NCBI RefSeq assembly: GCF_037975245.1
Contig: NC_092578.1
Location: forward strand, 15,792,321-15,856,320
Source of the DNA: Apostichopus japonicus
Lineage: Eukaryota > Echinodermata > Holothuroidea > Aspidochirotida > Stichopodidae
Reading direction: 5' to 3'
DNA: 64,000 bases
Of this stretch, positions 1 to 44,852 are shown in pieces (position 1 is the first letter of the stretch; every line of letters begins with the position of its first letter). Both the position numbers and the translations under genes were made by a program. Under the pieces are notes generated by a model. That model saw only the letters and a program-made list of their open reading frames with translations, was not told the DNA's origin and made no database searches.

Positions 1-9
1 ATTTCTTAC

Positions 10-234
10 ATTTGGTAAAGGACAACAACCATATTGTCCACTGGAAAGAAGACAACATGTGTTTCCATCTGGACATTCACTTTGTCCTCCTGGACATGTA
101 ACTGTTCCAACAGTGGTTGCTTCAGTCTTTTCAAACCAGGCCATAGTCTCACTTCCTTGACTACATGTGCCTCCAGAAACATCACATGTGTAACCATTTG
201 GACAACAGTGCAGATGGTCTGAGCAGCAAACAGC
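10..234 (-). CDS. GRN: Granulin array exon (last in window)
   Basis: I30T. It ends with a normal donor (AAT|GTAAG) at the window edge, so the coding sequence continues to the left. Confidence 0.94.
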
Positions 235-3200: not shown

Positions 3201-6200
3201 GTCATACCAACTGAATGAAATATTATTAAATTATAATTACATGGTGTATTTCTTACATTTGGTAAAGGACAACAACCATATTGTCCACTGGAAAGAAGAC
3301 AACATGTGTTTCCATCTGGACATTCAATTTGATGAAGATGGAATTTAAAAAATTTACACAGTGATTCAACTTTATTGAATCAGTTATATTTAGGTATGGG
3401 AAGTACTTTCCTATCTTACAGGGAAAGAGTTTATTCTAAAATATTTCCAAAACATCTCATTTTCTGATCATAATCTTAACTGTTTTCTACCCCTTCAGTG
3501 ATTGTCTTACCAAAACTGAATAAAATATTCTTTAATTCTAAAAAACATGTTTTTTACTTACATTTGGTAAAGGACAACACCCATATTGTCCACTGGAAAG
3601 AAGACAACATGTGTTTCCATCTGGACATTCACTTTGTCCTCCTGGACACGTAACTGTTCCAACAGTGGTTGCATCAGTCTTTTCAAACCAGTTCATTATA
3701 TCACTTCCTTGACTACATGTGCCTCCAGAAACGTCACATGTGTAACCATTTGGACAACAGTGCAGATGGTCTGAGCAACAAACAGCCTGCGAAAGAAGCA
3801 GTTATTTACACGGGAAGTAAAATAAATGTATCTGAAACAAAGTTTGTGTATGGTTTCTAGTAACAAATATTACAACACCACAGACAAACAAGTTGCCAGT
3901 ATGTTTTCAAAAATCTCATTTGCTATTACCCATACACCTTTCTGCTTTCTAGGATCCCAATGATTTAGTACACAACAAAACTAAGTAGATGGAATTTAAC
4001 AAATTTACACAGTGATTCAACTTAAAAGAACCAGTTATATTTAGGTAAAGGAAGTACTTTCTTATCTTACAGGAAGAAAAGTTTATTCTAAAATATTTCC
4101 AAAACATCCCATTTTCTGATCATAATCCTACCTGTTATCTTTCCCTTCAGTGATTGTCATACCAAAACTAAATAAAATATAAATAAATTCTAAAAAATAT
4201 GGTTTTTTTCCCTTACATTTGGTAAAGGACAACACCCATATTGTCCACTGGAAAGAAGACAACATGTGTTTCCATCTGGACATTCACTTTGTCCTCCTGG
4301 ACATGTAACTGTTCCAAGAGTGGTTGCTTCAGTCTTTTCAAACCAGGCCATAATCTCACTTCCTTGACTACATGTGCCTCCAGAAACGTCACATGTGTAA
4401 CCATTTGGACAACAATGCAGATGGTCTGAGCAGCAAACAGCCTACGAAATAAGCAGTTATTTACACTGGAGTTAAATATATGTATCAGAAACAAAGTTTG
4501 GATAAAAAATCAAGTGCGAAAAATGACAACACCACAGGCAAACAGTTGCCAGTATGTTCTCAAAAATCTCATTTGCTATTACCCATACACCTTTCTGCTT
4601 GCTAGAATCCCAATGATATTTTTCATTACAAAAATAAGATGCAATTTAAAATTCTGGACAGTGTTTCAATTTTAAAGAATCAGTTACATTTATTTATGGT
4701 AGGTTATTTCCTATCTTACACGGGAAAAGAGTTATTTTTAAACATTTCCAAAACATCTCATTTTCTGATCATAATCATACCTGTTATCTTTACCTTCAGT
4801 GATTTTCATACCAAAACTGACTAAAATATTTTTAAATTATAATTAACATGGTATATTTCTTACATTTGGTAAAGGACAACAACCATATTGTCCACTGGAA
4901 AGAAGACAACATGTGTTTCCATCTGGACATTCACTTTGTCCTCCTGGACATGTAACTGTTCCAAGAGTGGTTGCTTCAGTCTTTTCAAACCAGGCCATAA
5001 TCTCACTTCCTTGACTACATGTGCCTCCAGAAACATCACATGTGTAACCATTTGGACAACAATGCAGATGGTCTGAGCAGCAAACAGCCTACGAAAGAAG
5101 CAATATTTTACGTGTGGAATAAATATATGTGTCAGAAACAAAGTTTGGATAAGATTTCAAGTGACAAATATTACAACACCACAGACAAACAGGATGCCAG
5201 TATGTTTTCAAAAAATCTCATTTGTTATTACCCATACACCTTTCTGCTTTCTAAGATCCCAACAATTTTTTACACTATGAAAATAAGAAGATGGAATTTA
5301 ATAATTATAAACAGTGATTCAAGTTTATAGAATCAGTTGTAGTTAGGTATGGGAAGTACTTTCTTATCCTACAGGTAAAAGAGTTTATTCGAAACTATTT
5401 CCAAAAGATCTCATTTTCTGATCATAATCCTACCTGTTATCTTTACCTTCAGTGATTGTCATACCAAAACTGACTAAAATATTATTAAATTCTAAAAAAC
5501 ATGGTTTTTTACTTACATTTGGTAAAGGACAACAACCATATTGTCCACTGGAAAGAAGACAACATGTGTTTCCATCTGGACATTCACTTTGTCCTCCTGG
5601 ACATGTAACTGTTCCAACAGTGGTTGCTTCAGTCTTTTCAAACCAGGCTATAATCTCACTTCCTTGACTACATGTTCCTTGAGAAACATCACATGTGTAA
5701 CCATTTGGACAACAATGCAGATGGTCTGAGCAGCAAACAGCCTGTGAAAGAAGCAGTTATTTACAATGGAAGTAAGTATAGGTATCAGGCACAAGTTTAT
5801 GTATGATTTCTAGAAAAAATATGACGAAACCACACGCAAACAGGTTTCCAGTGTTTTCAATAATTCTCATTCATTATTTTCCATACACCTTTCTGTTCCT
5901 AGGATCCCAACGATTTTTAACACAACAAAACTAAGAAGATGGAATTTAAAAAATTTACATAGTGATTCAACTTTATTGAATCAGTTATATTTATGTATGG
6001 AAAGTACTTTCCTATCTTACAGGGGAAAAGAGTTGATTTTAAACTATTTCCAAAACATCTCATTTTCTGATCATAATCCTACCTGTTATCTTTCCCTTCA
6101 GTGATTGTCATACCTAAACTGACTACAATACTATTAAGTTCTAACAAACATGGTGTATTTCTTACATTTGGTAAAGGACAACAACCATATTGTCCACTGG

Positions 6201-9200
6201 AAAGAAGACAACATGTGTTTCCATCTGGACATTCACTTTGTCCTCCTGGACATGTAACTGTTCCAACAGTGGTTGCTTCAGTCTTTTCAAACCAGGCCAT
6301 AGTCTCACTTCCTTGACTACATGTGCCTCCAGAAACATCACATGTGTAACCATTTGGACAACAGTGCAGATGGTCTGAGCAGCAAACAGCCTACGAAAGA
6401 AGCAGTTATTTACACTGGAGTAAAATATATGTATCAGAAACAAAAGTTTGGATATGATTTCTAGTAAAATAAAATGACAGTACCACAGGCAAACAGGTTT
6501 CCAGTATGTTTTCAAAAAAGCTCATTTGCTACTACCCATACACCTTTCTGCTTTCTAGGATCCCAACGATTTTTTACACAACAAAACTAAGAAGATGGAA
6601 TTTCAAAATTGTACACAGTGATTCAACTTAATAGAATTAGTCATATTTAGGTATGGAAAGTACTTTCCTATCTTACAGGGAAAGAGTTTATTCTAAAATA
6701 TTTCCAAAACATCTCATTTTCTGATCATAATCTTAACTGTTGTCTACCCCTTCAGTGATTGTCTTACCAAAACTGAATAAATTATTCTTTAATTCTAAAA
6801 AACATGTTTTTTACTTACATTTGGTAAAGGACAACAACCATATTGTCCACTGGAAAGAAGACAACATGTGTTTCCATCTGGACATTCACTTTGTCCTCCT
6901 GGACACGTAACTGTTCCAAGAGTGGTTGCTTCAGTCTTTTCAAACCAGTTTATAATTGCACTTCCTTGACTACATGTGCCTCCAGCAACGTCACATGTGT
7001 AACCATTTGGACAACAGTGCAGATGGTCTGAGCAGCAAACAGCCTACGAAAGAAGCAATATTTTACATGTGGAATAAATATATGTTTCAGAAACAAAGTT
7101 TGGATATGATTTCAAGTGACAAAAACGACAACACCACAGGCAAACAGGTTTCCGCAAAATCTCGTTTGCTTTTATTCACACACCTTTCTGCTTTCTAGAA
7201 TTCCAACGATTTTTTACACAACAAAAATAAGATGCAATTTAAAATTCTGGACAGTGATTCAATTTAATAGAATCAGTTACATTTATGTATGGTAGGTTCT
7301 TTCCTATCTTACACGGGAAAAGAGTTATTTTTAAACATTTCCAAAACATTTCATTTTCTGATCATAATCCTACCTGTAATCTTTACCTTCGGTGATTGTC
7401 ATACCAAAACTGAATAAAATAGTATTAAATTCTAATAAACATGTTGTATTTCTTACATTTGGTAAAGGACAACAACCATATTGTCCACTGGAAAGAAGAC
7501 AACATGTGTTTCCATCTGGACATTCACTTTGTCCTCCTGGACATGTAACTGTTCCAACAGTGGTTGCTTCAGTCTTTTCAAACCAGGCCATAATCTCACT
7601 TCCTTGACTACATGTGCCTCCAGCAACGTCACATGTGTAACCATTTGGACAACAGTGCAGATGGTCTGAGCAGCAAACAGCCTGCAAAAGAAGCAGTTAT
7701 TTGCAATGGAAGTAAGTATAGGTATCAGGCACAAGTTTATGTATGATTTCTAGAAAAAATATGACAAAACCACACACAAACAGGTTTCCATCATGTTTTC
7801 AATAATTCTCATTCATTATTTTCCATACACCTTTCTGCTTTCTAGGATCCCAACGATTTTTAACACAACAAAACTAAGAAGATGGAATTTAAAAAATTTA
7901 CACAGTGATTCAACTTTATTGAATCAGTTATATTCATGTATGAAAAGTACTTTCCTATCTTACAGGGGAAAAGAGTTGATTTTAAACTATTTCCAAAACA
8001 TCTCATTTTCTGATCATAATCCTACCTGTTATCTTTCCCTTCAGTGATTGTCATACCTAAACTGACTACAATATTATTAAATTCTAACAAACATGGTGTA
8101 TTTCTTACATTTGGTAAAGGACAACAACCATATTGTCCACTGGAAAGAAGACAACATGTGTTTCCATCTGGACATTCACTTTGTCCTCCTGGACATGTAA
8201 CTGTTCCAACAGTGGTTGCTTCAGTCTTTTCAAACCAGGCTATAATCTCACTTCCTTGACTACATGTGCCTGCAGAAACATCACATGTGTAACCATTTGG
8301 ACAACAATGCAGATGGTCTGAGCAGCAAACAGCCTACGAAAGAAGCAGTATTTTACACTGGAGTAAAATATATGTATCAGAAACAAAAGTTTGGATATGA
8401 TTTCTAGTAAAATAAAATGACAGTACCACAGGCAAACAGGTTTCCAGCATGTTTTACAAAAAAGCTCATTTGCTACTACCCATACACCTTTCTGCTTTCT
8501 AGGATCCCAACGATTTTTTACACAACAAAACTAAGAAGATGGAATTTAAAAATTGTACACAGTGATTCAACTTAATAGAATTAGTTATATTTAGGTATGG
8601 GAAGTACTTTCCTATCTTACAGGGAAAGAGTTTATTCTAAAATATTCCAAAACATCTCATTTTCTGATCATAATCTTAACTGTTGTCTACCCCTTCAGTT
8701 ATTGTCTTACCAAAACTGAATAAAATATTCTTTAATTCTAAAAAACATGTTTTTTTTCTTACATTTGGTAAAGGACAACAACCATATTGTCCACTGGAAA
8801 GAAGACAACATGTGTTTCCATCTGGACATTCACTTTGTCCTCCTGGACATGTAACTGTTCCAACAGTGGTTGCTTCAGTCTTTTCAAACCAGGCCATAAT
8901 CTCACTTCCTTGACTACATGTGCCTCCAGCAACGTCACATGTGTAACCATTTGGACAACAGTGCAGATGGTCTGAGCAGCAAACAGCCTGCGAAAGAAGC
9001 AGTTATTTACAATGGAAGTAAGTATAGGTATCAGGCACAAGTTTATGTATGATTTCTAGTAAAAAATATGACAACACCACAGGCAAACAGGTTTCCAGTA
9101 TGTTTTCAATAATTCTCATTCATTATTTCCATACACCTTTCTGCTTTCTAGGATCCCAACGATTTTTAACACAACAAAACTAAGAAGATGGAATTTAAAA

Positions 9201-12200
9201 AATTTACACAGTGAATCAACTTTATTGAATCAGTTATATTTATGTATGGAAAGTACTTTCCTATCTTACAGGGAAAAGAGTTTATTCAAAACTATTTCCA
9301 AAACATCTCATTTTCTGATCATAATCCTACCTGTTATCTTTACCTTCAGTGATTGTCATACCAACTGAATGAAATATTATTAAATTATAATTACATGGTG
9401 TATTTCTTACATTTGGTAAAGGACAACAACCATATTGTCCACTGGAAAGAAGACAACATGTGTTTCCATCTGGACATTCACTTTGATGAAGATGGAATTT
9501 AAAAAATTTACACAGTGATTCAACTTTATTGAATCAGTTATATTTAGGTATGGGAAGTACTTTCCTATCTTACAGGGAAAGAGTTTATTCTAAAATATTT
9601 CCAAAACATCTCGTTTTCTGATCATAATCTTAACTTTTTTCTACCCCTTCAGTGATTGTCTTACCAAAACTGAATAAAATATTCTTTAATTCTAAAAAAC
9701 ATGTTTTTTACTTACATTTGGTAAAGGACAACACCCATATTGTCCACTGGAAAGAAGACAACATGTGTTTCCATCTAGACATTCACTTTGTCCTCCTGGA
9801 CACGTAACTGTTCCAAGAGTGGTTGCATCAGTCTTTTCAAACCAGTTCATTATATCACTTCCTTGACTACATGTGCCTCCAGAAACGTCACATGTGTAAC
9901 CATTTGGACAACAGTGCAGATGGTCTGAGCAACAAACAGCCTGCGAAAGAAGCAGTTATTTACAATGGAAGTAAGTATAGGTATCAGGCACAAGTTTATG
10001 TATGATTTCTAGTAAAAAATATGACAACACCACAGGCAAACAGGTTTCCAGTATGTTTTCAATAATTCTCATTCATTATTTCCATACACCTTTCTGCTTT
10101 CTAGGATCCCAACGATTTTTTACACAACAAAACTAAGAAGATGGAATTTCAAAATTGTACACAGTGATTCAACTTAATAGAATTAGTTATATTTAGGTAT
10201 GGGAAGTACTTTCCTATCTTACAGGGAAAGAGTTTATTCTAAAATATTCCAAAACATCTCATTTTCTGATCATAATCTTAACTGTTGTCTACCCCTTCAG
10301 TTATTGTCTTACCAAAACTGAATAAAATATTCTTTAATTCTAAAAAACATGTTTTTTACTTACATTTGGTAAAGGACAACAACCATATTGTCCACTGGAA
10401 AGAAGACAACATGTGTTTCCATCTGGACATTCACTTTGTCCTCCTGGACATGTAACTGTTCCAACAGTGGTTGCTTCAGTCTTTTCAAACCAGGCCATAA
10501 TCTCACTTCCTTGACTACATGTGCCTCCAGCAACGTCACATGTGTAACCATTTGGACAACAGTGCAGATGGTCTGAGCAGCAAACAGCCTGCGAAAGAAG
10601 CAGTTATTTACAATGGAAGTAAATATAGGTATCAGGCACAAGTTTATGTATGATTTCTAGTAAAAAATATGACAACACCACAGGCAAACAGGTTTCCAGT
10701 ATTTTTTCAATAATTCTCATTCATTATTTCCATACACCTTTCTGCTTTCTAGGATCCCAACGATTTTTAACACAACAAAACTAAGAAGATGGAATTTAAA
10801 AAATTTACACAGTGAATCAACTTTATTGAATCAGTTATATTTATGTATGGAAAGTACTTTCCTATCTTACAGGGAAAAGAGTTTATTCAAAACTATTTCC
10901 AAAACATCTCATTTTCTGATCATAATCCTACCTGTTATCTTTACCTTCAGTGATTGTCATACCAACTGAATGAAATATTATTAAATTATAATTACATGGT
11001 GTATTTCTTACATTTGGTAAAGGACAACAACCATATTGTCCACTGGAAAGAAGACAACATGTGTTTCCATCTGGACATTCACTTTGATGAAGATGGAATT
11101 TAAAAATTGTACAAAGTGATTCAACTTAATAGAATCAGTTATATTTAGGTATGGGAAGTACTTTCCTATCTTACAGGGAAAGAGTTTATTCTAAAATATT
11201 TCCAAAACATCTCATTTTCTGATCATAATCTTAACTGTTTTCTACCCCTTCAGTGATTGTCATACCAAAACTGAATGAAATATTATTAAATTATAATTAC
11301 ATGGTGTATTTCTTACATTTGGTAAAGGACAACAACCATATTGTCCACTGGAAAGAAGACAACATGTGTTTCCATCTGGACATTCACTTTGTCCTCCTGG
11401 ACATGTAACTGTTCCAACAGTGGTTGCTTTAGTCTTTTCAAACCAGTTCATTATCTCACTTCCTTGACTACATGTGCCTCCAGAAACATCACATGTGTAA
11501 CCATTTGGACAACAGTGCAGATGGTCTGAGCAGCAAACAGCCTGCAAAAGGAGCAGTTATTCACAGTCGAAGTAAAATATATGTATCAGAAACAAAGTTT
11601 GTGTATGATTTCCAGTAAAAAAAAAAAAGACAACTCCACAGACAAACAGGTTTCCAGTGTGTTTTCAAATAATCTCATTTGCTATTACCATACACCTTTC
11701 TGCTTCTTAGAATCCCAACGATGTTTTAAACAACAAATTTAAGATGCAAGTTAAAATTCTGGACAGTGATTCAATTTAAAAGAATCAGTTACATTCATTT
11801 ATTGTAGGTTCTTTCCTATCTTACAGGGGAAAAGAGTTGATTTGAAAACATTTCCAAAACATCTCATTTTCTGATCATATTCCTACCTGTTATCTTTACC
11901 TTCAGTGATTGTCATACCAAAACTGAATGAAATATTATTAAATTTTAATAAACATGGTGTATTTCTTACATTTGGTAAAGGACAACAACCATATTGTCCA
12001 CTGGAAAGAAGGCAACATGTGTTTCCATCTGGACATTCACTTTGTCCTCCTGGACATGTAACTGTTCCAACATTGGTTGCTTCAGTCTTTTCAAACCAGG
12101 CCATAATCTCACTTCCTTGACTACATGTGCCTCCAGAAACATCACATGTGTAACCATTTGGACAACAGTGCAGATGGTCTGAGCAGCAAACAGCCTGCAA

Positions 12201-18200: not shown

Positions 18201-21200
18201 GCAAATTTCGGGGCGGCTCGTTGATTGTGAGGAAGCACTTATCTAATTATCAATAGTTGTGCAAAATATCGTAAGGTTTTTCTTCAGAAAATATTTTTGA
18301 CTAGTAATTGGAATCTCAATGTATTAAGAAGTACTGGGTCTAAAGTTCTAAACCTTATCATTTCATTTTGGGGGAAGTCAGATCTTCAAGTGCAAAATAT
18401 TGTATTCTCATTTAAGGTTATCGTGGTTTTCTTGCGAGGTGTATACGGCGTATCTTTCGATGTAGGCTAAGAGGTAGGATCGGCCAAGGCCTACCTAGTT
18501 CTCATAGATTGTTACCTACGTTCAATTTAATGCCTAACGGGAGGAACTCGTATAAATAGTAACAGACTGGGGCACATTGTCGTAATTAATATAGTTTCCT
18601 TGCTAAAGTTTTTGCACTGATGGTATCGATCGTTTGTGCTCCTAGTAGCGCTGTTTTCTTTGTTACTCTTATTCTTATCACCTTAAGTATATGCTAACTC
18701 TGTGGTTGAATATTTTGGAAAGTCATTAATTGGGCTTTGTGCGATACTGAATTTACCGACTCTTTTCTTCATCACAGTTTATTCTAACCCATAGAAGCTC
18801 TGCTATGTAAAGCGGCTGCGAACACACTACGTTTACAGATTATACAAAATTGTACGTCTTTACGCGCGTATAATCCCTATTTAGGGGCACTAGAGCGAAG
18901 CCCTAAGGCGCGTTGACACGGCGTAGACACCGTGTAGAAAGTTGCGTACAGAAACGTATAACATCGTATAATTGCGTAGATAAACTTAGAGTATACGTCT
19001 ACGTGGAGTTATACGTGAGCGGAACTGTACCACAGGCAAACAGGTTCCAGCATGTTTTCAAAAAATTTCAATTGCTATTACCCATACTGCATTCTAGGAT
19101 CCCAACAATTTTGTACACAACAAAAATAAGAAGATGGAATTTAAAAATTTTACACAGTGATTCAACTTCATAAAACCAGTTATATTTAGGTAAAGAAAGT
19201 ACTTTCTTATCTTACAGGAACAAAAGTTTATTCTAAAACATTTCCAAAACATCTCATTTTCTGATCATAATCCTACCTGTTATCTTTCCCTCTAGTGATT
19301 GTCATACCAAAACTAAATAAAATATAAATAAATTCTAAAAAACATGGTTTTTTTTCTTACATTTGGTAAAAGACAACACCCATATTGTCCACTGGAAAGA
19401 AGACAACATGTGTTTCCATCTGGACATTCACTTTGTCCTCCTGGACATGTAACTGTTCCAACAGTGGTTGCTTCAGTCTTTTCAAACCAGTTCATAATCT
19501 CACTTCCTTGACTACATGTTCCTTGAGAAACATCACATGTGTAACCATTTGGACAACAGTGCAGATGGTCTGAGCAGCAAACAGCCTGCGAGAGAAGCAG
19601 TTATTTACACTGGAGTAAATATATATATCAGAAACAAAGTTTGGATATGATTTCAAGTGCAAAAAATGACAACACCACAGGCAAACAGGTCTCCAAAAAA
19701 TCTCCTTTGCTATTACCCATACACCTTTCTTGAATCCCAACGATTTTTTACACAACAAAAATAAGAAGATGGAATTTAAAATTTTTAACACTGATTCAAT
19801 TTAATAGAATCAGTTATATTTAGGTATGGGAAGTACTTTCTTATCTTACAAAGAAAAGAGTTTATTCAAAACTATTTCCAAAAGATCTCATTTTCTGATC
19901 ATAATCCTACCTGTTATCTTTCCCTTCAGTGATTGTCATACCAAAACTGAATAAAATATTATTTAATTCTAAAAAAACATGTTTTTTTTCTTACATTTGG
20001 TAAAGGACAACAACCATATTGTCCACTGGAAAGAAGACAACATGTGTTTCCATCTGGACATTCACTTTGTCCTCCTGGACATGTAACTGTTCCAACAGTG
20101 GTTGCTTCAGTCTTTTCAAACCAGTTCATAATCTCACTTCCTTGACTACATGTGCCTCCAGAAACATCACATGTGTAACCATTTGGACAACAGTGCAGAT
20201 GGTCTGAGCAACAAACAGCCTGCGAAGGAAGCAGTAATTTTACACTGGAAGTAAATATATGTATCAGACACAAAGTTTTGATATGATTTCAAGTGAGAAA
20301 AATGACAACAACACAGGCAAACAGGTCTCCAAAAACTCTCATTTGCTATTATCCATACACCTTTCTGCTTGCTAGAATCCCAAGGATTATTTACACAACA
20401 AAACTAAGAAGATGCAATTTAAAATTCTGGACAGTGATTCAATTTAATAGAATCAGTTACATATATGTATGGTAGGTTCTTTCCTATCTTACAGGAAAAG
20501 AGTTGATTTTAAAACATTTCCAAAACATCTCATTTTCTGATCCTTTTCCTACCTTTTATTTTTACCTTCGGTGATTGTCATACCAAAAGTTTATAAAATA
20601 TCATTAAATTCTAACAAGCATGGGGTATTTCTTACATTTGGTAAAGGACAACAACCATATTGGCCACTGGAAAGAAGACAACATGTGTTTCCATCTGGAC
20701 ATTCACTTTGTCCTCCTGGACATGTAACTGTTCCAACAGTGGTTGCTTCAGTCTTTTCAAACCAGTTCATAATCTCACTTCCTTGACTACATGTGCCTCC
20801 AGAAACGTCACATGTGTAACCATTTGGACAACAGTGCAGATGGTCTGAGCAGCAAACAGCCTACGTAAGAAGCAGATATTTACACTGGAGTAAATATATG
20901 TATCAGAAACAAAGTTTGGATATGATTTTAAGTGTGAAAAATGACAACACCACAGGCAAACAGGTTTAAAGCATATTTTCAAAAATTCTCATTTGCTATT
21001 TTCCATACACCTTTCTGCTTTCTAGGATCCTAACAATTTTGAAAACAACAAAAATAAGAAGATGGAATTTAAAAATTTTACACAGTGATTCAATTTAAAA
21101 GAATCAGTTACATTTAGGTATGGGAAGTACTTTCTTATCCTACAGGGAAGAGAGTTTATTCGAAACTATTTCAAAACATCTCATTTTCCTGATCATAATC

Positions 21201-24200
21201 CTACCTGTTATCTTTCCCTTCAGTGATTATCTTACCAAAACTGACTAAAATATTATTAAATTCTAAAAAACATGTTTTTTTCTTACATTTGGTAAAGGAC
21301 AACAACCATATTGTCCACTAGAAAGAAGACAACATGTGTTTCAGAATCAGTTACATTTATGTATGGGAAGTACTTTCTGATCTTACAGGGAAAAAAAGTT
21401 TATTCTAAAATATGTCCAATACATCTCATTTTCTGATCATAACCCTACCTGTTGTCTTTCCCTTGGGTGAATGTCATGCCAAACTGAATAAAATTTTATT
21501 ATATTTTAACAAACAGGGAGAATTTCTTACATTTGGTAAAGGACAACAACCATATTGTCCACTGGAAAGAAGACAACATGTGTTTCCATCTGGACATTCA
21601 CTTTGTCCTCCTGGACATGTAACTGTTCCAACAGCGGTTGCTTCATTCTTTTCAAACCAGGCCATAATCTCACTTCCTTGACTACATGTGCCTCCAGAAA
21701 CATCACATGTGTAACCATTTGGACAACAGTGCAGATGGTCTGAGCAGCAAACAGCCTGCGAAAGAAGCAGTTATTTACACTGGAGTAAATATATGTGTCA
21801 GAAACAAAGTTTGTGTATGGTTTCTAGTACGAAATATTACAACACCACCAACAAACAGGTTGCCAGTATGTTTTCAAAAAATCTCATTTGCTATTACCCA
21901 TACACCTTTTTGCTTTCTAGAATCCCAACGATTTTTTACACAACAAAAATAAGAAGATGGAATTTAACATTTTAAACAGTGATTCAAGTTGATAGAATCA
22001 GTTGTATTTAGGTATGGGAAGTACTTTCTAATCTTACAGGTAAAAAAGTTTATTCTAAAATATTTCTCAAACATCTCATTTTCTGATCATAATCCTACCT
22101 GTTATCTTTCCCTTCAGTGAATGTCATACCAGAACTAAATGAAATATTATTAAATTCTAACAAACATGGCGTATTTCTTACATTTGGTAAAGGACAACAC
22201 CCATATTGTCCACTGGAAAGAAGACAACATGTGTTTCCATCTGGACATTCACTTTGTCCTCCTGGACATGTAACTGTTCCAACAGTGAATACTTCAGTCT
22301 TTTCGAACCAGTTCATAATCTCACTTCCTTGACTACATGTGCCTCCAGAAACATCACATGTGTAACCATTTGGACAACAGTGCAGATGGTCTGAGCAGCA
22401 AACAGCCTGCAAAAGAAGCAGTTATTTACACTGGAGTAAAATATATGTATCAGAAACTAAGTTTGGATATGATTTCAAGTGCGAAAAATGACAACACCAC
22501 AGACAAACAGGTTGCCAGCATGTTTTCAAAAATCTCATTTGCTAACCCTTTCAGCTTTCTAGGATCCCAACGATTTTTACACAACAAAAATAAGAAGATG
22601 GAATTTAGAAATTTTAGACAGTGATTCAACTTACAAGAATCTGTTACATTTGGGTATGGGAAGTACTTTCCTATCTTACAGAGAAAGAGTTTATTCTAAT
22701 ATATCTCCAAAACAACTCATTTTCTAATCTTAATTCTTCCTGTTATCTTTACCTTCAGCGATTGTCTTACCAAAGCTGAATAAAATATTATTAAATTCTA
22801 AAAAACATGGTTTTTTACTTACATTTGGTAAAGGACAACAACCATATTGTCCACTGGAAAGAAGACAACATGTGTTTCCATCTGGACATTCACTTTGTCC
22901 TCCTGGACATGTAACTGTTCCAACAGCGGTTGCTTCAGTCTTTTCAAACCAGGCCATAATCTCACTTCCTTGACTACATGTGCCTCCAGAAACATCACAT
23001 GTGTAACCATTTGGACAACAGTGCAGATGGTCTGAGCAGCAAACAGCCTGCAAAAGAAGCAGTTATTCACAGTGGAAGTAAAATATATGTAAAAGAAACA
23101 AAATTTGGATAAGATTTCAAGTGCGAAAAATGACGACACCACAGGCAAACAGGTTTCCAAAAAATCTCATTTGCTATTACCCATACACCTTTCTAGAATC
23201 CCAACGATATTTTTCACTACAAAAATAAGATGCAATTTAAAATTCTTGACAGTGATTCAATTTAATAGAATCAGTTACATTTATGTATGGTAGGTTCATT
23301 CCTATCTTACAGGAAAAGAGTTGATTTTAAAACATTTCCAAAACATCTCATTTACTGATCATAATCCTAGGTCTGTTATCTTAACCTTCGGTGATTGTCA
23401 TACCAAACCTGAACAAAATAGTATTAAATTCTAACAAGCATGGTGTATTTCTTACATTTGGTAAAGGACAACAACCATATTGTCCACTGGAAAGAAGACA
23501 ACATGTGTTTCCATCTGGACATTCACTTTGTCCTCCTGGACATGTAACTGTTCCAACAGTGGTTGCTTCAGTCTTTTCGAACCAGTTCATAATCTCACTT
23601 CCTTGACTACATGTGCCTCCAGAAACATCACATGTGTAACCATTTGGACAACAGTGCAGATGGTCTGAGCAGCAAACAGCCTGCAAAAGAAGCAGTTATT
23701 TACACTGGAAGTAAATATATGTTTCAGAAGCAAAGTTTGGATATGATTTCTAGTAAAATAAAATGACAGTACCACAGGTAAATAGGTTTCAAGCATTTTT
23801 ATTAAAAATCTCATTTGCTATTACCCGTACTGCTTTCTAGGATCCCAACAATTTTTTACACAACAACCAGAATGAAAACATTTCATGGTTCCTTGCTGCT
23901 GTTCATTAGTTCCATTCATAGGGAAATTTCTAACAAAGCCCTAATACAACAACAGTAATTTATGCTCACAAACTTTTGTTGCCAAAGTAATGCTAAGCCC
24001 TGATATCAATTGCAACACACATCAGTGTGTGAAGACTATCTACCATTATCATCATACCAAGTTTGACGAAATTCCGACTAGTAATAGTAGCCAAGTAATT
24101 GCAATTTGGAGTATTTCACGTTTGACCCCATGACCTCATTAATATTCATGAAATGACCACCAAAATCAACATGGTTAATCTACTTACTATGAGCCACCCA

Positions 24201-27200
24201 CTCACCAAGTATGGTAATGATTGGTCATTCCCTTGTTGAGTTATTGTGCATACAAACTTTTCATAACGAAATAATGCTAGGCCCCCCTTCCCATATAAAC
24301 ATGCATGATATCAATTGCAACACACATCAGTGTGTGGAGACTATCTACCGATATCAGCATACCAAGTTTGACGAAATTCCAATAAATAGTAGCTGAGTTA
24401 TTGCAACTTGGGAGTTTTTCACGTTTGACCCGTGACCTCATTAATATTTTTTTAACTTTGACCTTGTTTAACTTCGCACACGAAGGTCACACGGGGGTCA
24501 ACCTATTGACATTTATGATCAGAAGGTACCTTTGACATCTGAAAATAGCATCGAAACTGTAAAAATCCCCAAAACATGAAAAGGTCACCAGAGGTCAAAT
24601 TGAAGTCAAGGGTCACCCAGATGCGGGTCAACAAGTGGATTACATTGAAGCAACTCCCAACCTTAACGGACAGTTCGTTCTCAAGTTATCACAAAAATAC
24701 CAGTTTTTTTATCATTAATTGACCTTTGGTGACCTCGGATCACATGACCGTTAGGTTTGAAAATATTCCCCTATACCATTTGCAACTTGTCCCAAAATAT
24801 CAACCGTGTCACACCTTGGAACTGAGAGTAATTGCATTAAATGTCTGAAAATTAACTTTGACCTCGTATAACTCCGCACACGAAGGTCACACGGGGGTCA
24901 ACCCATTGACATTTATGATCAGAAGGTACCTTTGACATCTGAAAATAGCATTGAAACTGTAAAAATCCCCAAAACATGAAAAGGTCACCAGAGGTCAAAT
25001 TGAGGTCAAGGTTCACCCAGATGCAGGACGACAATTGGATTAAATTGAAGCAACTCCCAACCCTAACGGACAATTCGTTCTCAAGTTATCGCAAAAATAC
25101 TAGTTTTTTATCATTAATTGACCTTTGGTGACCTCGGATCACATGACCGTTAAGTTTGAAAATATTCCCCTATACCATTTGCAACTTGTCCCAAAATATC
25201 AACCGTGTCACACCTTGGAACTGAGAGTTACTGCATTAAATGTCTGAAAATTTACTTTGACCTTGTATAACTTTACACACAAAGGTCACTCGGGTGTCAA
25301 CCAATTGACATTTTTGATCGGAAGGTACCTTTGATATCCAAATCTAGCATCAAAACCAAACATTTTCTTTTTCGCCCGTTTTCTCCCAAACTAAGCACAT
25401 TTTTTCTAATGTGACCTTTGACCTTTTGACCTTGGTTTCAAATGTAGTTTGATCTGCTGATTCCAAAAATCAACACGATAAGTCTGTACAGCCATCCTAA
25501 CTCCGACCGAAAACTTTGACCCCATATAAGTTCGCACACAAAGGTCACACAGGGGTCAACCTATCGATATTTATGATCGGAAGGTACCTTTGACATCTGA
25601 AAAGAGCATCGAAACTGTAAAAATCCCCAAAACATGAAAAGGTCACCAGAGGTCAAATTGAGGTCAAGGGTCACCCAGATGTGGGTCGACAATTGGATTA
25701 CACTGAAGCAACTCCCAACCCTAACGGACAATTCCTTCTCAAGTTATCGCAAAAATACTAGTTTTTTAACATTAACTGACCTTTGGTGACCTCAGATCAC
25801 ATGACCGTTAAGTTTCAAAATGTTCCCCTAACCAGTTCACAACTTGTCCCAAAATATCAACCTTGTCGCACATTGGCACTGGGAGTTATTGCAGTTTTAG
25901 TATTTTGGGTTTTTGGACCATAACTGACCTTTGGTGACCTTTGTGGGCACCAAAAACAATAGGGTTCATCTACTCACTATGGGCCACCCACCCACCAAGT
26001 TTGATCATGATCAGTCAATCCCTTGTTGAGTTATCGTGCATACAAGCTAAAGCATCACACACATACACAAACATACAGTACATACACTCACACACACGCC
26101 AACCTGAATACATAGGTTCCTTTGCTTTTAGCAAGGAACCAAAAATAAGAAGATGGAATTTAAAAATTTCAGACAGTGATCCAACTTACAAGAATCTGTT
26201 ACATTTATGTATGGGAAGTACTTTCCTATCTAACAGGGACAGAGTTTATTCTAATATATTTAAAAAACATCTCATTTTCTGATCATAATCCTACCTGTTA
26301 TCTTTACCTTCAGTGATTGTCATACCAAAACTGACTAAAATATTATTAAATTCTAACAAACATGGTGTATTTCTTACATTTGGTAAAGGACAACACCCAT
26401 ATTGTCCACTGGAAAGAAGACAACATGTGTTTCCATCTGGACAATAACTTTGTCCTCCTGGACATGTAACTGTTCCAACAGTGGTTGCTTCATTCTTTTC
26501 AAACCAGGCCATAATCTCACTTCCTTGACTACATGTGCCTCCAGAAACATCACATGTGTAACCATTTGGACAACAGTGCAGATGGTCTGAGCAGCAAACA
26601 GCCTGCGAAAGAAGCAGTTATTTACACTGGAGTAAAATATATGTATCAGAAACAAAAGTTTGGATATGATTTCTAGTAAAATAAAATGACAGTACCACAG
26701 GCAAACAGGTTTCCAGCATGTTTTCAAAAAATCTCATTTGCTATTACCCATTCACCTTTCTGCTTTCTAGGATCCCAACGATTTTTTACACAACAAAACT
26801 AAGAAAATGGAATTAAAAATTGTACACAGTGATTCAACTTAATAGAATCAGTTATATTTATGTATGGGAAGTACTTTCCTATCTTACAGGGAGAAGAGTT
26901 GATTTTAAAACATTTCCAAAACATCTCATTTTCTGATCATAATCTTACCTGTTGTCTTTACCTTCAGTGATTGTCATATCAAAACTGAATGAAATATTAT
27001 TAAATTCCAACAAACATGGTGTATTTCTTACATTTGGTAAAGGACAACAACCATATTGTCCACTGGAAAGAAGACAACATGTGTTTCCATCTGGACATTC
27101 ACTTTGTCCTCCTGGACATGTAACTGTTCCAACAGTGGTTGCTTCAGTCTTTTCAAACCAGGCCATAATCTCACTTCCTTGACTACATGTGCCTCCAGAA

Positions 27201-30200
27201 ACATCACATGTGTAACCATTTGGACAACAGTGCAGATGGTCTGAGCAGCAAACAGCCTGCGAAAGAAGCAGTATTTTACACTGGAGTAAATATATGCATC
27301 AGAAACAAAGTTTGGATATGATTTCAAGTGAGAAAAATGACAACAACACAGGCAAACAGGTCTCCAAAAACTCTCATTTGCTATTATCCATACACCTTTC
27401 TGCTTGCTAGAATCCCAAGGATTATTTACATAACAAAACTAAGAAGATGCAATTTAAAATTCTGGACAGTGATTCAATTTAATAGAATCAGTTACATATA
27501 TGTATGGTAGGTTCTTTCCTATCTTACAGGAAAAGAGTTGATTTTTAAACATTTCCAAAATTAAAATTCTAACAAACATGGTGTATTTCTTACATTTGGT
27601 AAAGGACAACAACCATATTGTCCACTGGAAAGAAGACAACATGTGTTTCCATCTGGACATTCACTTTGTCCTCCTGGACATATAACTGCCCCAAGGGTGG
27701 TTGCTTCAGTCTTTTCAAACCAGGCCATTATCTCACTTCCTCGACTACAGGAACCTCGAGAAGGATCACATGTAAAACCATTTTGACAGCAATGGATCTG
27801 ATCTGGGCAGCAAACCGCCTGAAAAAGTCATCAAAGTGATATCAGATACATCAGGTAGGAACTGGTTGGTGGTTTACAGTCAATTACATTGAATAACAGT
27901 ACACAAACTCAATCTTCACAGTAGGCATTGTGATTTGCAATGACGGCCATAGTCTTAACAGAAAATGAGTAAGTGTTTTTGAGCAGAAATCTTTTTATTG
28001 ACAAGTTCCCTTTTCAATGACCCTGTTTTGCCCCTGCCTCCCTGTTCTCTCCACCCCTGCCCTCTCCCATACCCTCTGCCATCAGTTGTCTTCTTCATCG
28101 TACAATTAGGCATTCATCACCGAGTATACATGCCAATCAGGGTTGACTCATTTTCTACAGCTGGTTCATGTACTGTAATCTGATTTTGTGGGACACACTG
28201 TAATCTGATGCACTGTAATCTGATGTATTGTTATCTGATGTACTGTTATCTGATGTACTGTAATCTCATGTACTGTTATCTGCTGTATTGTTATCTGATG
28301 CACTGTTATCTGATGTACTGTAATCTCATGTACTGTAATCTCATGTACTGTAATCTGCTGTATTGTTATCTGATGCACTGTTATCTGATGTACTGTAATC
28401 TCATGTACTGTTATCTGATGTACTGTAATCTCATGTACTGTAATCTCATGTACTGTAATCTGATGTACTGTAATCTGCTGTATTGTTATCTGATGCACTG
28501 TTATCTGATGTACTGTAATCTCATGTACTGTTATCTGATGTACTGTAATCTGATGTACTGTAATCTCAAGTACTGTAATCTGATGTACTGTAATCTGATG
28601 TACTGTAATATGATGTACTGTAATCTCAAGTACTGTAATCTGACATGCTGTAATTTGATGTATTGTAATCTGATGTACTGTAATCTGATGTACTGTAATT
28701 GGATGTAATGTAATCTCAAGTACTGTAATTTCAAGTACTCAAGTACTATAATCTGATGTACTGTAATCTCATGTATCATAACCTCATGTACTGTAATCTG
28801 ACGTACTGTAATTTGATGTAATGTAATCTGATGTCCTGTAATCTGATGTACTGTAATTGGTTCATGCACTGTTATATCAAAGACTATAATTGGCTCATGT
28901 ACTGTAATCTCATGTACTCATAAGTGTGTGAACAGAAGAAGACCTGCTTAAACTTTTTCCAGTGATTCAATGATTTGGGTCAATCCAAATTTTACAAAAC
29001 TGAATACAGTACAGAGAAGAGCCCTCCAGTCGGGGAAAAATGTCACAATATGTAATAGTGCATGCCATATTGATTTGAATTGCATACAAACTCTTTAATG
29101 CTACATCACAAGCAAAGATTACAGTATTAAGCATCAAATACAGCCAACCAATCACATTAAACCTTTCTTTAGAGAGCTACATGTGTTGCTGTTTTTTTTT
29201 TTTTTCACGTTAATCACTGACCATTCACAGCCCTCTTCGTCATCGCTTGGCAAGGGGCTTGGGTGAATGAGAATTTCATCACTTTTTTTTTATTCCTTTT
29301 TCACCTCTAAATGAACCAGATATATGGCACTCTCAGGCTCTCTCTGTTGACCGCAGGATTTTTGTTTGTGATTCCTAGTTCGGTCGGTACTGGGAGAGAG
29401 CTACATTACAGACATTAGAAAATCTATAAAATCTTCCGATCTTAGAAACTTGTCTTAGGCCGACCCATCATATCATTTGATCCTTGGCACAGGGTCCCCA
29501 TGGGGGGGGGGAGGTGTCTTGGCCCCTGGAGTTCGCACCGGGTTTCGAAACACATCTTTGACATAGATTCCACTATAGGCAAAGGATTTCGGGTCTAAAT
29601 CCTTGTAGAGGTCAAATATTTCTTACATTACGTAAAGGACAACAACCATATCGTCCAGTGGCAAGGATGCAACAAGTGCTTCCATCTGGACATTCGCTCC
29701 TTCTGTCGGGACACATCACAGATTCAACTATGACCGCCTCTGTCTTGCTTACTCCGGCCACAAATACATTGCCCTCCTCCTTGCTACACTGGTCGCCATC
29801 GCAGGAAAACCCTTCCGGACAGCAGTGAGTGTCACAGCATTCCGCCTTGACAAAAAGAGAAGAAGAGCAGATATCCTCACTGTATAATGCTGTGCAAGTA
29901 CATCTATAGCAGAGTGATTGATTGTCTACTGACCCACCTGTTGAACTGTCACTGCAGATCACTTTATTTTCAAGACAGTTGACTCAGAAAATTGGTTTCA
30001 AATTTTTGTCATTTGCCCTGTGCATTACAGAGTGCTCAGTGGTACAAACTGTATGCACAAATTTTTTTTTTTTTGGGCCATGATCAATCGAGGTCGGTAA
30101 ACTGACAGTTCATTGGCTGGATACCCTCCTTGTCACGTTGAACAACCAATGACGGACGCAGACATACAATATCGAATCGTTGAAAATGGATAAACCAGCC

Positions 30201-32464
30201 AGTCAACAGGCAGACTTGGTGATTCCTCGGTACCTACTTTGAATATTTTCTTGAATAACACTGCATGTGGGATTTTACAATTTTCAGCCACTTTGACAAA
30301 ACAAGGTTCCTGCACTACCGTGGACAAACATATCGGGGGGGGGGGCATTAAGTTTAAAATCCAAGCTTTACTTTGACGGTATAAATCATGTTGAATACAA
30401 CCATTTTTAGACATTGACCTCTGTTGACCTTTGACCTCCATTGATAGCAATAAGATCCTTGTACTCACTACAAGGTCAATCTAGAATCCAAGGATGACAT
30501 TCACACAAGCTTTACTTTGTTAGTTATTTGTGTACAAGGTTTTCCAGTTCTTGACCTCTAATTGATCGTTGACCTCCAAGACAGCAAAAATGATTCATGA
30601 ACTCATCTAGGGTTAGATCCACATATAAGTTCAACCGCCATTTACCAAGAAAACCAAGTAAGTCACACACACACACAATTTTTTTGCCTCCGGTAATTCC
30701 AAAGCTACTGTTTGGATTAATATTCAACTATTGCTGCCACAGGAATTAAACTAATATTCACATGACTAGTGGCTTTGAAGATTTTGGGAAACAAAGGAAG
30801 TAATTATAGACCTATTATTAAAAAGGGGAGGTGTTTGGCAAACTACCACATTTTTTTTTAAACTACCTCATCCAGAGGTCAAATTTCTCATCCAGTTTAA
30901 AATAATGAACAACCTCTGTTTTATTTTTATATTTTTTTTTGGTGCAAATTTGAGAATTACTGCAGGAAACTGTGAAACGATAAAGGATAGGAAAATGTCA
31001 TAACAGAGGAAATCAAAAGTGACTTTCAGAAAATTTCTTAACGTATAGCAAAAATTAGTCAAAAGATTGCACTAAAAGATTTTGTTAAGTTTCACAAACT
31101 TGCAACAATATAGATTTGCTGTATAGATTTGAAGTGGCAAATATATATATATATATATATATAAATATAAAAATATATATATATTGCAGTGTTTTATGTT
31201 GTTGTATTATTGGCTTGGGGGGATGGGGTGAGGATGAAGAACGTAATAGAGATTATATCTTGTTAGATGTATCCTGGATTAACCAAATTTGTGATGCCCC
31301 CTCACCCCCCCCCCAAAAAAAATTGGCCATAGTAAAATGACTTGGATTAGAAAAACTTTCGAATACAATGAGTGCTTTCTTTGTATCTCCTGATTAGCAA
31401 GGAATCAAGAAGAAAAGGGGAAAAAAATTATTTAGCAACCAGACTCCAGCCAAGTATGTTCCCCCAATTTGTTATTTCAATCCTTGAGGAATCCACAAAA
31501 TTTCACGATAAAAGAAGACAAAAGTCATTTCTACTTACTTTGGGCAGGGGACAGCAGCCGTATTTGCCATCTGCTTGTGGACAACATGTGTTACCATCTT
31601 TGCAGTAGTACTTTCCACCGCAATGCACATTCTTCGCCACCTCCTTTTCAAACCAAGGCAATTTCTCTGATTCGCTGCTGCAAGTTCCTTCGCTGACATC
31701 ACAGGTGTACCCCGAGGGGCAACAATGTTCTCCATCGGAGCAGCATACAGCCTGCGAAATATTTAGGTACCAAACTGTCGACTGAAGAGCTCTTGCGATT
31801 GGGTTCATGAATTTTGGTCATTCTGACTCAACCAAATCATAGTCACATGCACAGTACGCTCGTACAGTAATCGATTACCCCCTAAAAAAAATCTATAAAC
31901 TAAAGAAAGATCTAAGTGGATAAACCATTGGAGCGGTCATACAGTCCTTTAGCAAGTACAGTATAGTCGAGGGACCTTTCGTGGGAAATTCCAACCAGTG
32001 TAACCTTAGCGATGGAAACCAAGCCAAACTGGATATATATGTTAGTATGTACTGTTACTGTGCAGGACCACAATGTGTTTTACACAAGAGTGAATGCAAA
32101 ATTAATGTTAGAGAAATAATTTAGCGTTCACATTTTGCGTCCATATGTACTAAGCATTTTTCAGGTTTCCTGAAACTTATTTCACCGATAAAATACCGAA
32201 GACAACATGATGCAGTGTACAGGATAAACTACCATGCATTTTTGCTAAATTTGTGCAGCATTTTTTTGCATCGCACTTTGCTACTTGTAAAAGTGAGAGA
32301 GAGTTAGAGAGAGAGAGACTCACGTTAGGTACAGGGCAACAGCCATATCCTCCTGATTCCAGCTCGCAACATGTTTTATTTTGGTCACATCTCGTCTCCT
32401 GGTCGGGACATAAGAGGGACAAAGCGACTGGGAGGACTCCCAGTAGCAAGAATAGTAGCTTCAT
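10..32464 (-). CDS. GRN: Giant progranulin-type polygranulin gene (3'-partial, 38 coding exons in window)
   Basis: Encodes a secreted precursor of tandem granulin modules. In known progranulins such modules are released as cysteine-rich peptides with growth-factor and lysosomal roles. The start is the ATG at 32462-32464, followed by a hydrophobic signal peptide ([18 protein letters not shown]). Every later exon begins with the second half of one granulin ([20 protein letters not shown]...GTC), continues through a WFEKTEA linker, and ends with the first half of the next ([15 protein letters not shown]...[10 protein letters not shown]). All introns are phase 0 (AAT|GTAAG donors, CGCAG or CGTAG|GCT acceptors). 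Residue numbers in the exon entries refer to this 75-residue module, with consensus S20 G21 E29 I30 M31 A32 T37 E38 A39 T40 T41 V42 T44 E53. In total 37 full exons plus the signal exon give about 2,816 residues and 37 complete modules, against 7.5 in mammalian progranulin. No stop codon is reached before the left edge. Splicing is predicted, not proven. Confidence 0.93.
663..887 (-). CDS. GRN: Granulin array exon
   Basis: S20A, E29A, M31I, A32N and V42L. Confidence 0.94.
1302..1526 (-). CDS. GRN: Granulin array exon
   Basis: S20A only. Confidence 0.94.
1954..2178 (-). CDS. GRN: Granulin array exon
   Basis: Matches the consensus at every residue. Confidence 0.94.
2608..2832 (-). CDS. GRN: Granulin array exon
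   Basis: S20A only. Confidence 0.94.
3257..3332 (-). pseudogene. Truncated granulin exon relic
   Basis: Retains the donor and roughly the last 25 codons of the module (through [10 protein letters not shown]). It then runs at 'tttgatgaagatgg' straight into intron sequence. The acceptor and the first two thirds of the exon are gone, so it should be spliced out. Phase-0 neighbours keep the frame. Confidence 0.85.
3562..3786 (-). CDS. GRN: Granulin array exon
   Basis: E29D, A32N and E38D. Duplicate of the exon at 9716. Confidence 0.94.
4217..4441 (-). CDS. GRN: Granulin array exon
   Basis: V42L only. Confidence 0.94.
4864..5088 (-). CDS. GRN: Granulin array exon
   Basis: V42L only. Confidence 0.94.
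5517..5741 (-). CDS. GRN: Granulin array exon
   Basis: G21Q and M31I. Confidence 0.94.
6166..6390 (-). CDS. GRN: Granulin array exon
   Basis: I30T, shared only with its duplicate at 10. Confidence 0.94.
6819..7043 (-). CDS. GRN: Granulin array exon
   Basis: S20A, E29A, M31I, A32N and V42L. It carries the same five changes as its duplicate at 663. Confidence 0.94.
7457..7681 (-). CDS. GRN: Granulin array exon
   Basis: S20A. Duplicate of the exon at 1302. Acceptor TTTTGCAG|GCT. Confidence 0.94.
8109..8333 (-). CDS. GRN: Granulin array exon
   Basis: G21A and M31I. It sits at the position paired with the consensus exon at 1954, so these two duplicates have already diverged. Confidence 0.94.
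8763..8987 (-). CDS. GRN: Granulin array exon
   Basis: S20A only. Duplicate of the exon at 2608. Confidence 0.94.
9411..9486 (-). pseudogene. Truncated granulin exon relic (duplicate of 3257)
   Basis: Same breakpoint as the relic at 3257, carried along in the 6.155-kb duplication. Confidence 0.85.
9716..9940 (-). CDS. GRN: Granulin array exon
   Basis: E29D, A32N, E38D, V42L and P55L (ECLDGNTCC). The frame is intact on the minus strand. It is the paralogous copy of the exon at 3562 in the 6.155-kb duplication. Confidence 0.92.
10364..10588 (-). CDS. GRN: Granulin array exon
   Basis: S20A only. It belongs to the same subfamily as the exons at 2608 and 8763, each of which precedes a truncated relic in the plus-strand direction. 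Confidence 0.94.
11012..11087 (-). pseudogene. Truncated granulin exon relic (third copy)
   Basis: Same breakpoint again. It sits about 650 bp from the S20A-type exon at 10364, as its relatives do from 2608 and 8763. Confidence 0.85.
11317..11541 (-). CDS. GRN: Granulin array exon
   Basis: A32N and E38K. It is followed in transcription by the truncated exon at 11012-11087. Confidence 0.94.
11970..12194 (-). CDS. GRN: Granulin array exon
   Basis: T41N only. Confidence 0.94.
12607..12831 (-). CDS. GRN: Granulin array exon
   Basis: I30M, M31I, A32N and T41A. Confidence 0.94.
13246..13470 (-). CDS. GRN: Granulin array exon
   Basis: G21Q only. Confidence 0.94.
13898..14122 (-). CDS. GRN: Granulin array exon
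   Basis: G21Q, A32N and T40F. It shares this combination with the exon at 15189, suggesting descent from one duplicate. Confidence 0.94.
14537..14761 (-). CDS. GRN: Granulin array exon
   Basis: M31V, V42L, T44A, S52V and E53Q. Confidence 0.94.
15189..15413 (-). CDS. GRN: Granulin array exon (most diverged within array)
   Basis: Eight changes: G21Q, A32N, T40F, T44R, E53V, N58T, Q67H and G69R ([10 protein letters not shown]). All cysteines are kept. Confidence 0.94.
15814..16038 (-). CDS. GRN: Granulin array exon
   Basis: L8M and V42L. Confidence 0.94.
16447..16671 (-). CDS. GRN: Granulin array exon
   Basis: E29A, M31I and A32N (SAIINWFEK). It follows the intron interrupted by the 2.26-kb TIR transposon. 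Confidence 0.94.
16766..19026. mobile_element. 2.26-kb TIR DNA transposon with GTAC target duplication
   Basis: The left end AGTACCGCTCACATATAACT and the inverted right end AGTTCCGCTCACGTATAACT match at 18 of 20 bases. The intron sequence gacaGTACcacagg seen in other units is split here with GTAC on both sides (16762-16765, 19027-19030). Subterminal regions are rich in GCGTA-type motifs, as expected for transposase binding sites. No transposase ORF is visible, so it is non-autonomous. A 4-bp duplication alone does not assign a superfamily. Confidence 0.85.
19361..19585 (-). CDS. GRN: Granulin array exon
   Basis: G21Q, A32N and P72L, so the normally invariant CCPLPN ends as CCLLPN. It is the last exon before the 16766-19026 transposon in transcription order. 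Confidence 0.94.
19995..20219 (-). CDS. GRN: Granulin array exon
   Basis: A32N only. Confidence 0.94.
20636..20860 (-). CDS. GRN: Granulin array exon
   Basis: A32N only. The acceptor is ACGTAG|GCT rather than the common CGCAG. Confidence 0.94.
21287..21342 (-). pseudogene. Truncated granulin exon relic (independent deletion)
   Basis: Keeps the donor and about 18 codons, then joins at 'tgtgtttc|agaatcag' to intron sequence. This breakpoint differs from that of the other three relics. Confidence 0.82.
21531..21755 (-). CDS. GRN: Granulin array exon
   Basis: Changes T37N and T41A. A truncated exon relic (21287-21342) lies in the intron just downstream in transcription. Confidence 0.94.
22182..22406 (-). 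CDS. GRN: Granulin array exon
   Basis: N-type linker with A32N, A39V and T40F ([12 protein letters not shown]). Confidence 0.94.
22823..23047 (-). CDS. GRN: Granulin array exon
   Basis: Single change T41A relative to the consensus. Confidence 0.94.
23456..23680 (-). CDS. GRN: Granulin array exon
   Basis: N-type linker: A32N only. Confidence 0.94.
23867..26140. mobile_element. 2.27-kb repetitive insertion with internal ~400-bp tandem units
   Basis: It interrupts the intron motif cacaacAAaaataagaag found intact in other units. GGTTCCTTGCT near the left end (23887) and AGCAAGGAACC at the right end are perfect 11-bp inverted repeats. Inside, 'aactttgacc...gaaggtcac' heads start at 24454, 24854, 25254 and 25512, and an earlier pair of ~310-bp units covers 24000-24450. 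No protein is recognised. The type is unresolved. The left boundary lies about 20 bp outside the inverted repeat. Confidence 0.75.
26378..26602 (-). CDS. GRN: Granulin array exon
   Basis: Differs from the consensus at T37N and E53Y. Its 3' neighbour intron (minus-strand sense) holds the 23867-26140 insertion. Confidence 0.94.
27032..27256 (-). CDS. GRN: Granulin array exon
   Basis: Matches the array consensus at every residue. The intron to the next upstream exon (27594) is about 337 bp, shorter than the usual 420 bp. Confidence 0.94.
27594..27818 (-). CDS. GRN: Granulin array exon (first of array; mosaic)
   Basis: 225 bp. The N-terminal part differs from the consensus at S5P, H7Q, L8I, P12Q, Y15F, V19P, G21R, T23S and Q26R, whereas residues 47-75 are array-identical. 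V42L, T44A and T46I lie between. Acceptor TTTTTCAG|GCG. It looks like the boundary between the old 5' exons and the homogenised array. Confidence 0.93.
27819..28180. other. Intron sequence, no further feature seen
   Basis: 5' part of the large intron preceding the minisatellite. It contains a C/T-rich stretch (28020-28090). Nothing else is recognised. Confidence 0.7.
28185..28925. repeat. 15-bp minisatellite (consensus TAATCTGATGTACTG)
   Basis: About 48 imperfect units in the intron between granulin exons at 27594 and 29627. Because 15 is a multiple of three, long open frames appear on both strands (YCNLM and HQITV repeats). These are not treated as genes. Higher-order spacing of 5 and 8 units is visible around 28282, 28357 and 28477. 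Confidence 0.95.
28926..29626. other. Progranulin intron, unique sequence
   Basis: Holds poly-T (29192-29206) and poly-G (29503-29512) tracts. No coding or structured feature is recognised. Confidence 0.7.
29627..29845 (-). CDS. GRN: Progranulin exon 3 (diverged granulin junction, 73 codons)
   Basis: Reads [20 protein letters not shown], then a linker lacking the WFEK block ([17 protein letters not shown]), then [15 protein letters not shown]...[10 protein letters not shown]. The cysteine pattern is complete. Acceptor TCAAG|GCG, donor AAT|GTAAGAA. Confidence 0.92.
29846..31538. other. Progranulin intron with AGGTCA-type repeat and TA microsatellite
   Basis: Contains TGACCT half-sites at about 30415-30437 (spacers of 4 and 1), related in style to the 23867-26140 insertion. 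There is also a CA tract (30666-30677) and a TA microsatellite (31140-31185). No exon is recognised. Confidence 0.65.
31539..31751 (-). CDS. GRN: Progranulin exon 2 (diverged granulin junction, 71 codons)
   Basis: Reads [20 protein letters not shown], linker with [10 protein letters not shown], then [15 protein letters not shown]...[10 protein letters not shown]. It completes granulin 1 with all 12 cysteines and opens granulin 2. It is clearly older than the array exons. Acceptor CGCAG|GCT, donor AAA|GTAAGT. Confidence 0.93.
31752..32323. other. First coding intron of progranulin
   Basis: About 570 bp. A GA-rich tract directly follows the donor of the first coding exon (plus-strand 32294-32318). 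Nothing else is seen. Confidence 0.7.
32324..32464 (-). CDS. GRN: Progranulin exon: start codon, signal peptide, first half-granulin
   Basis: There are 47 codons: an 18-residue hydrophobic signal peptide, then CPDQETRC...[16 protein letters not shown], the first six cysteines of granulin 1. The donor is AAC|GTGAGT. A CAG acceptor lies immediately before the ATG (minus-strand TTTTTACCAG|ATG). This suggests an untranslated 5' exon further upstream, which I could not locate. Confidence 0.9.
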
Positions 32465-34891: not shown

Positions 34892-35291
34892 AGATGGATG
34901 GATGGATGGATGGATGGATGGATGGATGGATGGATGGATGGATGGATGGATGGATGGATGGATGGATGGATGGATGGATGGATGGATGGATGGATGGATG
35001 GATGGATGGATGGATGGATGGATGGATGGATGGATGGATGGATGGATGGATGGATGGATGGATGGATGGATGGATGGATGGATGGATGGATGGATGGATG
35101 GATGGATGGATGGATGGATGGATGGATGGATGGATGGATGGATGGATGGATGGATGGATGGATGGATGGATGGATGGATGGATGGATGGATGGATGGATG
35201 GATGGATGGATGGATGGATGGATGGATGGATGGATGGATGGATGGATGGATGGATGGATGGATGGATGGATGGATGGATGGATGGATGGAT
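34892..35291. repeat. (GATG)n microsatellite, ~400 bp
   Basis: About 100 uninterrupted tetranucleotide units. The MDGW and HPSI open frames on both strands are repeat artefacts. Confidence 0.98.

Positions 35292-44763: not shown

Positions 44764-44852
<89 letters not shown>

Follow-up and report, generated by a model that had tools for sequence, protein, structure and literature searches.

The minus strand of the window (the whole 64,000-nt stretch of Apostichopus japonicus DNA analysed here, C18:15792321-15856320) carries, together with its left flank, one progranulin gene of 49 coding exons spread over 43.9 kb (43,899 bp). Judged from its sequence, this is very likely a single gene in which amplification of the middle part has produced a series of 225-nt exons. 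The predicted coding sequence of 10,680 nt translates into an acidic chain of 3,559 residues (368 kDa, pI 4.46) containing 47 granulin modules and 565 cysteines, in keeping with the precursor of about 300 kDa or more proposed in the original prediction. The same prediction had spoken of gene amplification within one open reading frame, which fits the 49 in-frame exons and the degree of repetition that they encode: 20 of the 47 modules are one sequence, and 32 of the 47 are covered by three.

We added flanks of 40 kb on the left and 10 kb on the right of the window (114 kb in all, with no N anywhere in the region examined around the gene) and scanned the minus strand for half-granulin motifs, splice sites and frame; a window coordinate w corresponds to C18 15792320+w. 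On the window's minus strand, we counted 37 instances of the C-half cysteine motif; the plus strand has none, and neither has any of 20 first-order Markov control sequences. Exons 1-38 lie in the window between 32464 and 10 and supply 37 complete modules plus one N-half, which bears out the earlier count of 38 in-frame exons with phase-0 introns, intact cysteines and splice sites (38 of 38 found) and of at least 37 complete modules. No stop had been seen before the left edge of the window, and that edge indeed cuts the gene, which runs 11.4 kb beyond it. The sequence to the left, which the original prediction had proposed to obtain in order to find the stop codon, contains 11 further exons and a TAA at window coordinate -11434, or C18:15780886. 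Across the full model, all introns are in phase 0, all exon lengths are divisible by three and no stop precedes the terminal one; the splice sites hold without exception, with AG before 48 of 48 exons (2-49) and GT after 48 of 48 (1-48).

The exon layout consists of one sn exon, 44 cn exons (2-43, 47 and 48), three irregular exons (44-46) and a terminal c exon. Exon 1 (32324..32464, placed by motif and splice sites) encodes a hydrophobic leader, judged by eye, and the N-half of module 1. Because a CAG acceptor stands directly before its ATG, a 5′ untranslated exon probably lies upstream. Exon 2 (31539..31751; C-half of module 1, N-half of module 2) and exon 3 (29627..29845; C and N halves) are divergent, and exon 4 (27594..27818; C and N halves) makes the transition into the array. 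The homogeneous array begins with exons 5 and 6 (27256-27032 and 26602-26378) and continues through exons 7-13 (19361..23680; starts at 23680, 23047, 22406, 21755, 20860, 20219 and 19585), exons 14-23 (10364..16671; starts at 16671, 16038, 15413, 14761, 14122, 13470, 12831, 12194, 11541 and 10588), exons 24-32 (4217..9940; starts at 9940, 8987, 8333, 7681, 7043, 6390, 5741, 5088 and 4441) and exons 33-38 (10..3786; starts at 3786, 2832, 2178, 1526, 887 and 234), after which the donor side of intron 38 occupies positions 1..9. Array exons 39-43 lie to the left of the window, followed by exons 44 (-4094..-4270), 45 (-5526..-5720), 46 (-7394..-7507), 47 (-8977..-9231), 48 (-10149..-10382) and 49, with the TAA (-11303..-11434). 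In exons 44-46, the half-modules are split irregularly, and the model there is built on motif and splice phase only.

Modules 4-42, each of 53 residues and joined by 22-residue linkers, hardly differ from one another, and they are flanked by divergent modules at both ends (1-3 and 43-47). Exons 4-43 each measure exactly 225 nt. The 38 introns between exons 5 and 43 are less regular: 32 are of 400-430 bp and six are longer, and the 32 short ones have 16 different lengths, 21 of them not divisible by three. Each of the 38 contains at least four in-frame stops, and unspliced read-through is therefore ruled out. Twelve cysteines are found in 46 of the 47 modules and 13 in the remaining one (module 44). 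Each of the 18 distinct module sequences hits Pfam PF00396 (E<=0.001); no match came from NCBIfam, which serves the annotation of prokaryotes. The best sequence matches of a representative array module in the PDB are granulins, namely human granulin A (2jye, E=7.6e-20), 2jyt and 2jyv, also human, and 6cku, besides some short fragments. From these matches to solved granulins, the modules are predicted to adopt the stacked β-hairpin granulin fold. Twelve-cysteine modules, their tandem arrangement in one predicted secreted precursor, half-module exons and a near-identical run place the gene in the progranulin family. A search of the 671.6-Mb, 35-contig assembly, with all 110 first-look candidates scored, returned 46 granulin matches, all in this gene, and found no second granulin locus.

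The array retains traces of how it may have grown. Exons 24-32 recur about 6,155 bp farther on as exons 33-41, of which exons 33-38 lie in the window, and the repeated 6.155-kb block comprises nine exon-intron units. The two copies differ at 26 of 5,723 bases (0.45%), with 4 differences in 2,025 exon bases versus 22 in 3,698 intron bases (introns 24-31 versus 33-40; Fisher p=0.038). Among unit separations of 1 to 19, pairs nine apart are the most alike on average; physical distance explains little of the divergence between units (Spearman rho 0.09, on pairs that are not independent). Truncated copies of an N-half exon with an identical junction sit in intron 22 (near 11071; 11012..11086, the upper end approximate), intron 24 (near 9470, ending at 9411) and intron 33 (near 3316, ending at 3257); they are probably remnants of an unequal event that were later carried along in blocks. 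Two array introns are much enlarged. Intron 6 (23681..26377; 2,697 bp) holds a dispersed repeat with 400-bp tandem units (window 24300-25500), for which the scoring of 40 of 1,795 candidates gave at least 163 matches, spread over many contigs. Intron 13 (16672..19360; 2,689 bp) resembles intron 6 only at its two ends and therefore represents a separate insertion. Outside the array, intron 3 contains a 15-bp minisatellite of about 44 copies (window 28197-28857).

We propose that the middle of the gene would have been enlarged by unequal exchange or segmental duplication of one to several exon-intron units at a time, with the nine-unit block as a recent copying step. The heterozygosity of another A. 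japonicus individual has been put at 1.59% by k-mer analysis and at 0.73% by read mapping, the latter called an underestimate by its authors (PMC5638244). Set against the higher figure, the nine-unit duplication appears younger than the average pair of alleles. Since the 0.45% divergence of the block falls below the published 1.59%, the number of modules may vary between individuals. The array could then be a coding VNTR, in which exon-intron units of 650 bp are gained and lost in blocks and alleles differ by several modules, so that the dose of a single growth-factor peptide would be set heritably in a highly regenerative animal; we offer this reading tentatively, leaning slightly against it.

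The array exons are clearly more alike than the introns, with a mean pairwise divergence of 3.3% versus 14% in the 32 short introns (the pairs are not independent). Averaged over pairs of the 39 exons, pN/pS is 0.45, with 0.22 in the C-half, 0.27 in the N-half and 0.94 in the linker, again on non-independent pairs. By this measure, the linkers look freer to change than the modules, though not by variant counts: with each variant counted once, the modules have 17 nonsynonymous and 10 synonymous variants, a depletion that is not significant against the intron spectrum (p=0.18), and the linkers have 20 and 6, which does not differ significantly from the modules (Fisher p=0.37). Because synonymous variants in the array exons are also depleted relative to the introns, with 16 seen versus about 40 expected, part of the uniformity of the exons may reflect homogenisation (conversion) or constraint on splicing, and not selection on the protein.

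Could the array be something other than one long gene? A row of short progranulin genes at the locus, or a partly pseudogenised array, is highly improbable. The array is indeed interrupted by two introns of 2.7 kb and by three truncated copies of an exon, and exons 44-46 depart from the regular C-half/N-half layout, but the truncated copies sit within introns and the intron 6 insert belongs to a repeat dispersed in the genome. A motif scan of exons 2-43, each of which carries a C-half plus the next N-half, found neither a second signal-peptide or start exon nor a lone terminal exon, and all 49 exons are intact and in phase. An apparent stop at codon 53, which would be a single-base change from the consensus, was likewise discarded: the exon concerned reads Tyr there, and no exon is interrupted by a stop. 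An assembly artefact, in which the real array is shorter and, for example, the nine-unit block is two alleles placed in tandem, leaving 38 modules instead of 47, is a more serious concern, although still an improbable one. The 26 differences in 5,723 bases between the block copies are what gives it weight, being fewer than expected from the 1.59% heterozygosity of the other individual (PMC5638244). Against this, HiFi reads averaging 14.7 kb (PMC10344927, if that is the assembly concerned) exceed the length of both copies together (about 12.3 kb), and the other units are readily distinguished, with a mean difference of 8-9% when each exon is compared together with about 100 bp on each side. Taking the block away would still leave 38 modules.

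For the single amplified gene, the action of its product can be read in two ways. The chain would be secreted and/or sent to lysosomes, its linkers would be cut by cathepsin- or elastase-type proteases, and about 39 granulins, almost identical and of roughly 5.3 kDa each, would be set free; the array would raise the yield of one peptide per transcript. We consider release by linker cutting moderately probable, by analogy with vertebrate progranulin, which is processed by lysosomal cathepsins and yields granulin-size bands with cathepsin L in vitro (PMC5569495); a study cited in the same paper reports that cathepsin L cuts the linkers, and elastase and MMPs are cited there for extracellular cleavage. 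No dibasic pair occurs between residues 166 and 3226 of the predicted chain, and because the array has no such site, prohormone convertases are unlikely to act in it. N-glycosylation motifs are absent between residues 29 and 3249. The protein might instead work uncut, as a long multivalent cysteine-rich fibre or a matrix or scaffold whose repeat number sets length or avidity and not peptide yield. The lack of dibasic sites in the array and the fixed linker length of 22 residues would suit such a role, and intact progranulin is itself active (PMC4527844), but cathepsins do cut the vertebrate linkers (PMC5569495) and the linkers here have the highest pairwise pN/pS (0.94), as suits disposable spacers, although the variant-count test does not separate them from the modules. 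On balance, we regard an uncut protein as rather unlikely.

The surroundings of the gene include several other recognisable features. A perfect GATG microsatellite of about 100 copies (window 34893-35291) lies some 2.4 kb upstream of the start codon. Farther upstream and on the same minus strand, a Dickkopf-like gene (window 42744-45120) stands between the granulin and integrin genes; two ORF pieces, when joined, gave a match to the Dickkopf N-terminal domain (E=3e-11), and another cysteine-rich piece is present. The integrin alpha gene, also on the minus strand (window 55934-63295, possibly 54511 to about 72977), matches Pfam Integrin_A_Ig_2 and Ig_3 above the cut-off and Ig_1 and FG-GAP below it. 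Mainly by eye, we also recognised an exon at 54.5 kb that resembles a membrane span, and others, reaching to about 73 kb, that resemble the propeller. Human GRN likewise lies near an integrin alpha gene (ITGA2B), in a different orientation, and the linkage of granulin and integrin alpha may therefore be ancient. Downstream of the progranulin gene, the plus strand carries exons with a family-2 glycosyltransferase domain, GalNAc-transferase-like by eye. Elsewhere in the assembly, the 16,099-bp contig C35 has a COX1 match in Pfam and, read by eye, the gene order COX1-ND4L-COX2, with ND6 on the opposite strand ahead of CYTB, an echinoderm arrangement; COX1-like pieces at C29:14745-16086 and 30842-31219 are mitochondrial copies or assembly debris.

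In a starfish study, granulin serves as a comparison and assay control (PMC11891777). Three A. japonicus genome papers and a Holothuria preprint do not mention granulin in their main text, and among the papers listed from the openly licensed literature none, as judged by titles and the beginnings of abstracts, describes this gene. At this locus, the amplification of exons within a growth-factor gene can be followed in fully contiguous sequence. Its steps of growth are legible in the sequence, as a nine-unit duplication, truncated exon remnants at shared breakpoints and uniform exons among diverging introns, and we regard the recent block duplication as the most interesting part of the gene. 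The human progranulin gene is a dementia gene, and the sea cucumber array makes it testable whether animals raise their granulin dose by lengthening one open reading frame.

Human GRN, with 7.5 divergent modules, has a C-terminal sortilin-binding tail, which is not seen at the ...PSKKLK end of the A. japonicus chain. The two genes are alike in their 12-cysteine modules and, towards the C-terminal end of the mammalian gene, in cn exons (PMC4527844). Among invertebrates, the premise of the original prediction that most progranulins have few modules did not hold up: amphioxus has more than 30 and Aplysia 13, and near-identical repeated modules are known in Aplysia, oyster, sea urchin and Nematostella, with origins that Palfree et al. 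2015 (PMC4527844) call unclear. Amphioxus (Branchiostoma floridae) is similar in that its granulin chain holds as many as 31 repeats, set between 8 and 3 flanking modules (PMC4527844), but there the repeats lie in multi-module exons and their number is uncertain, whereas each array module of A. japonicus is interrupted by a phase-0 intron and could be counted in contiguous sequence. Aplysia and oyster likewise assemble near-identical modules from split N, C and CN exons, although Aplysia has 13 modules, 11 of them identical, compared with 47 here (PMC4527844). The sea urchin Strongylocentrotus purpuratus, a fellow echinoderm, also has highly repetitive modules, but they are reported in tandem within a single large exon (PMC4527844). 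The A. japonicus gene is, as far as the literature covered here shows, a record-sized example of an already known kind, larger than those found listed by Palfree et al. 2015.
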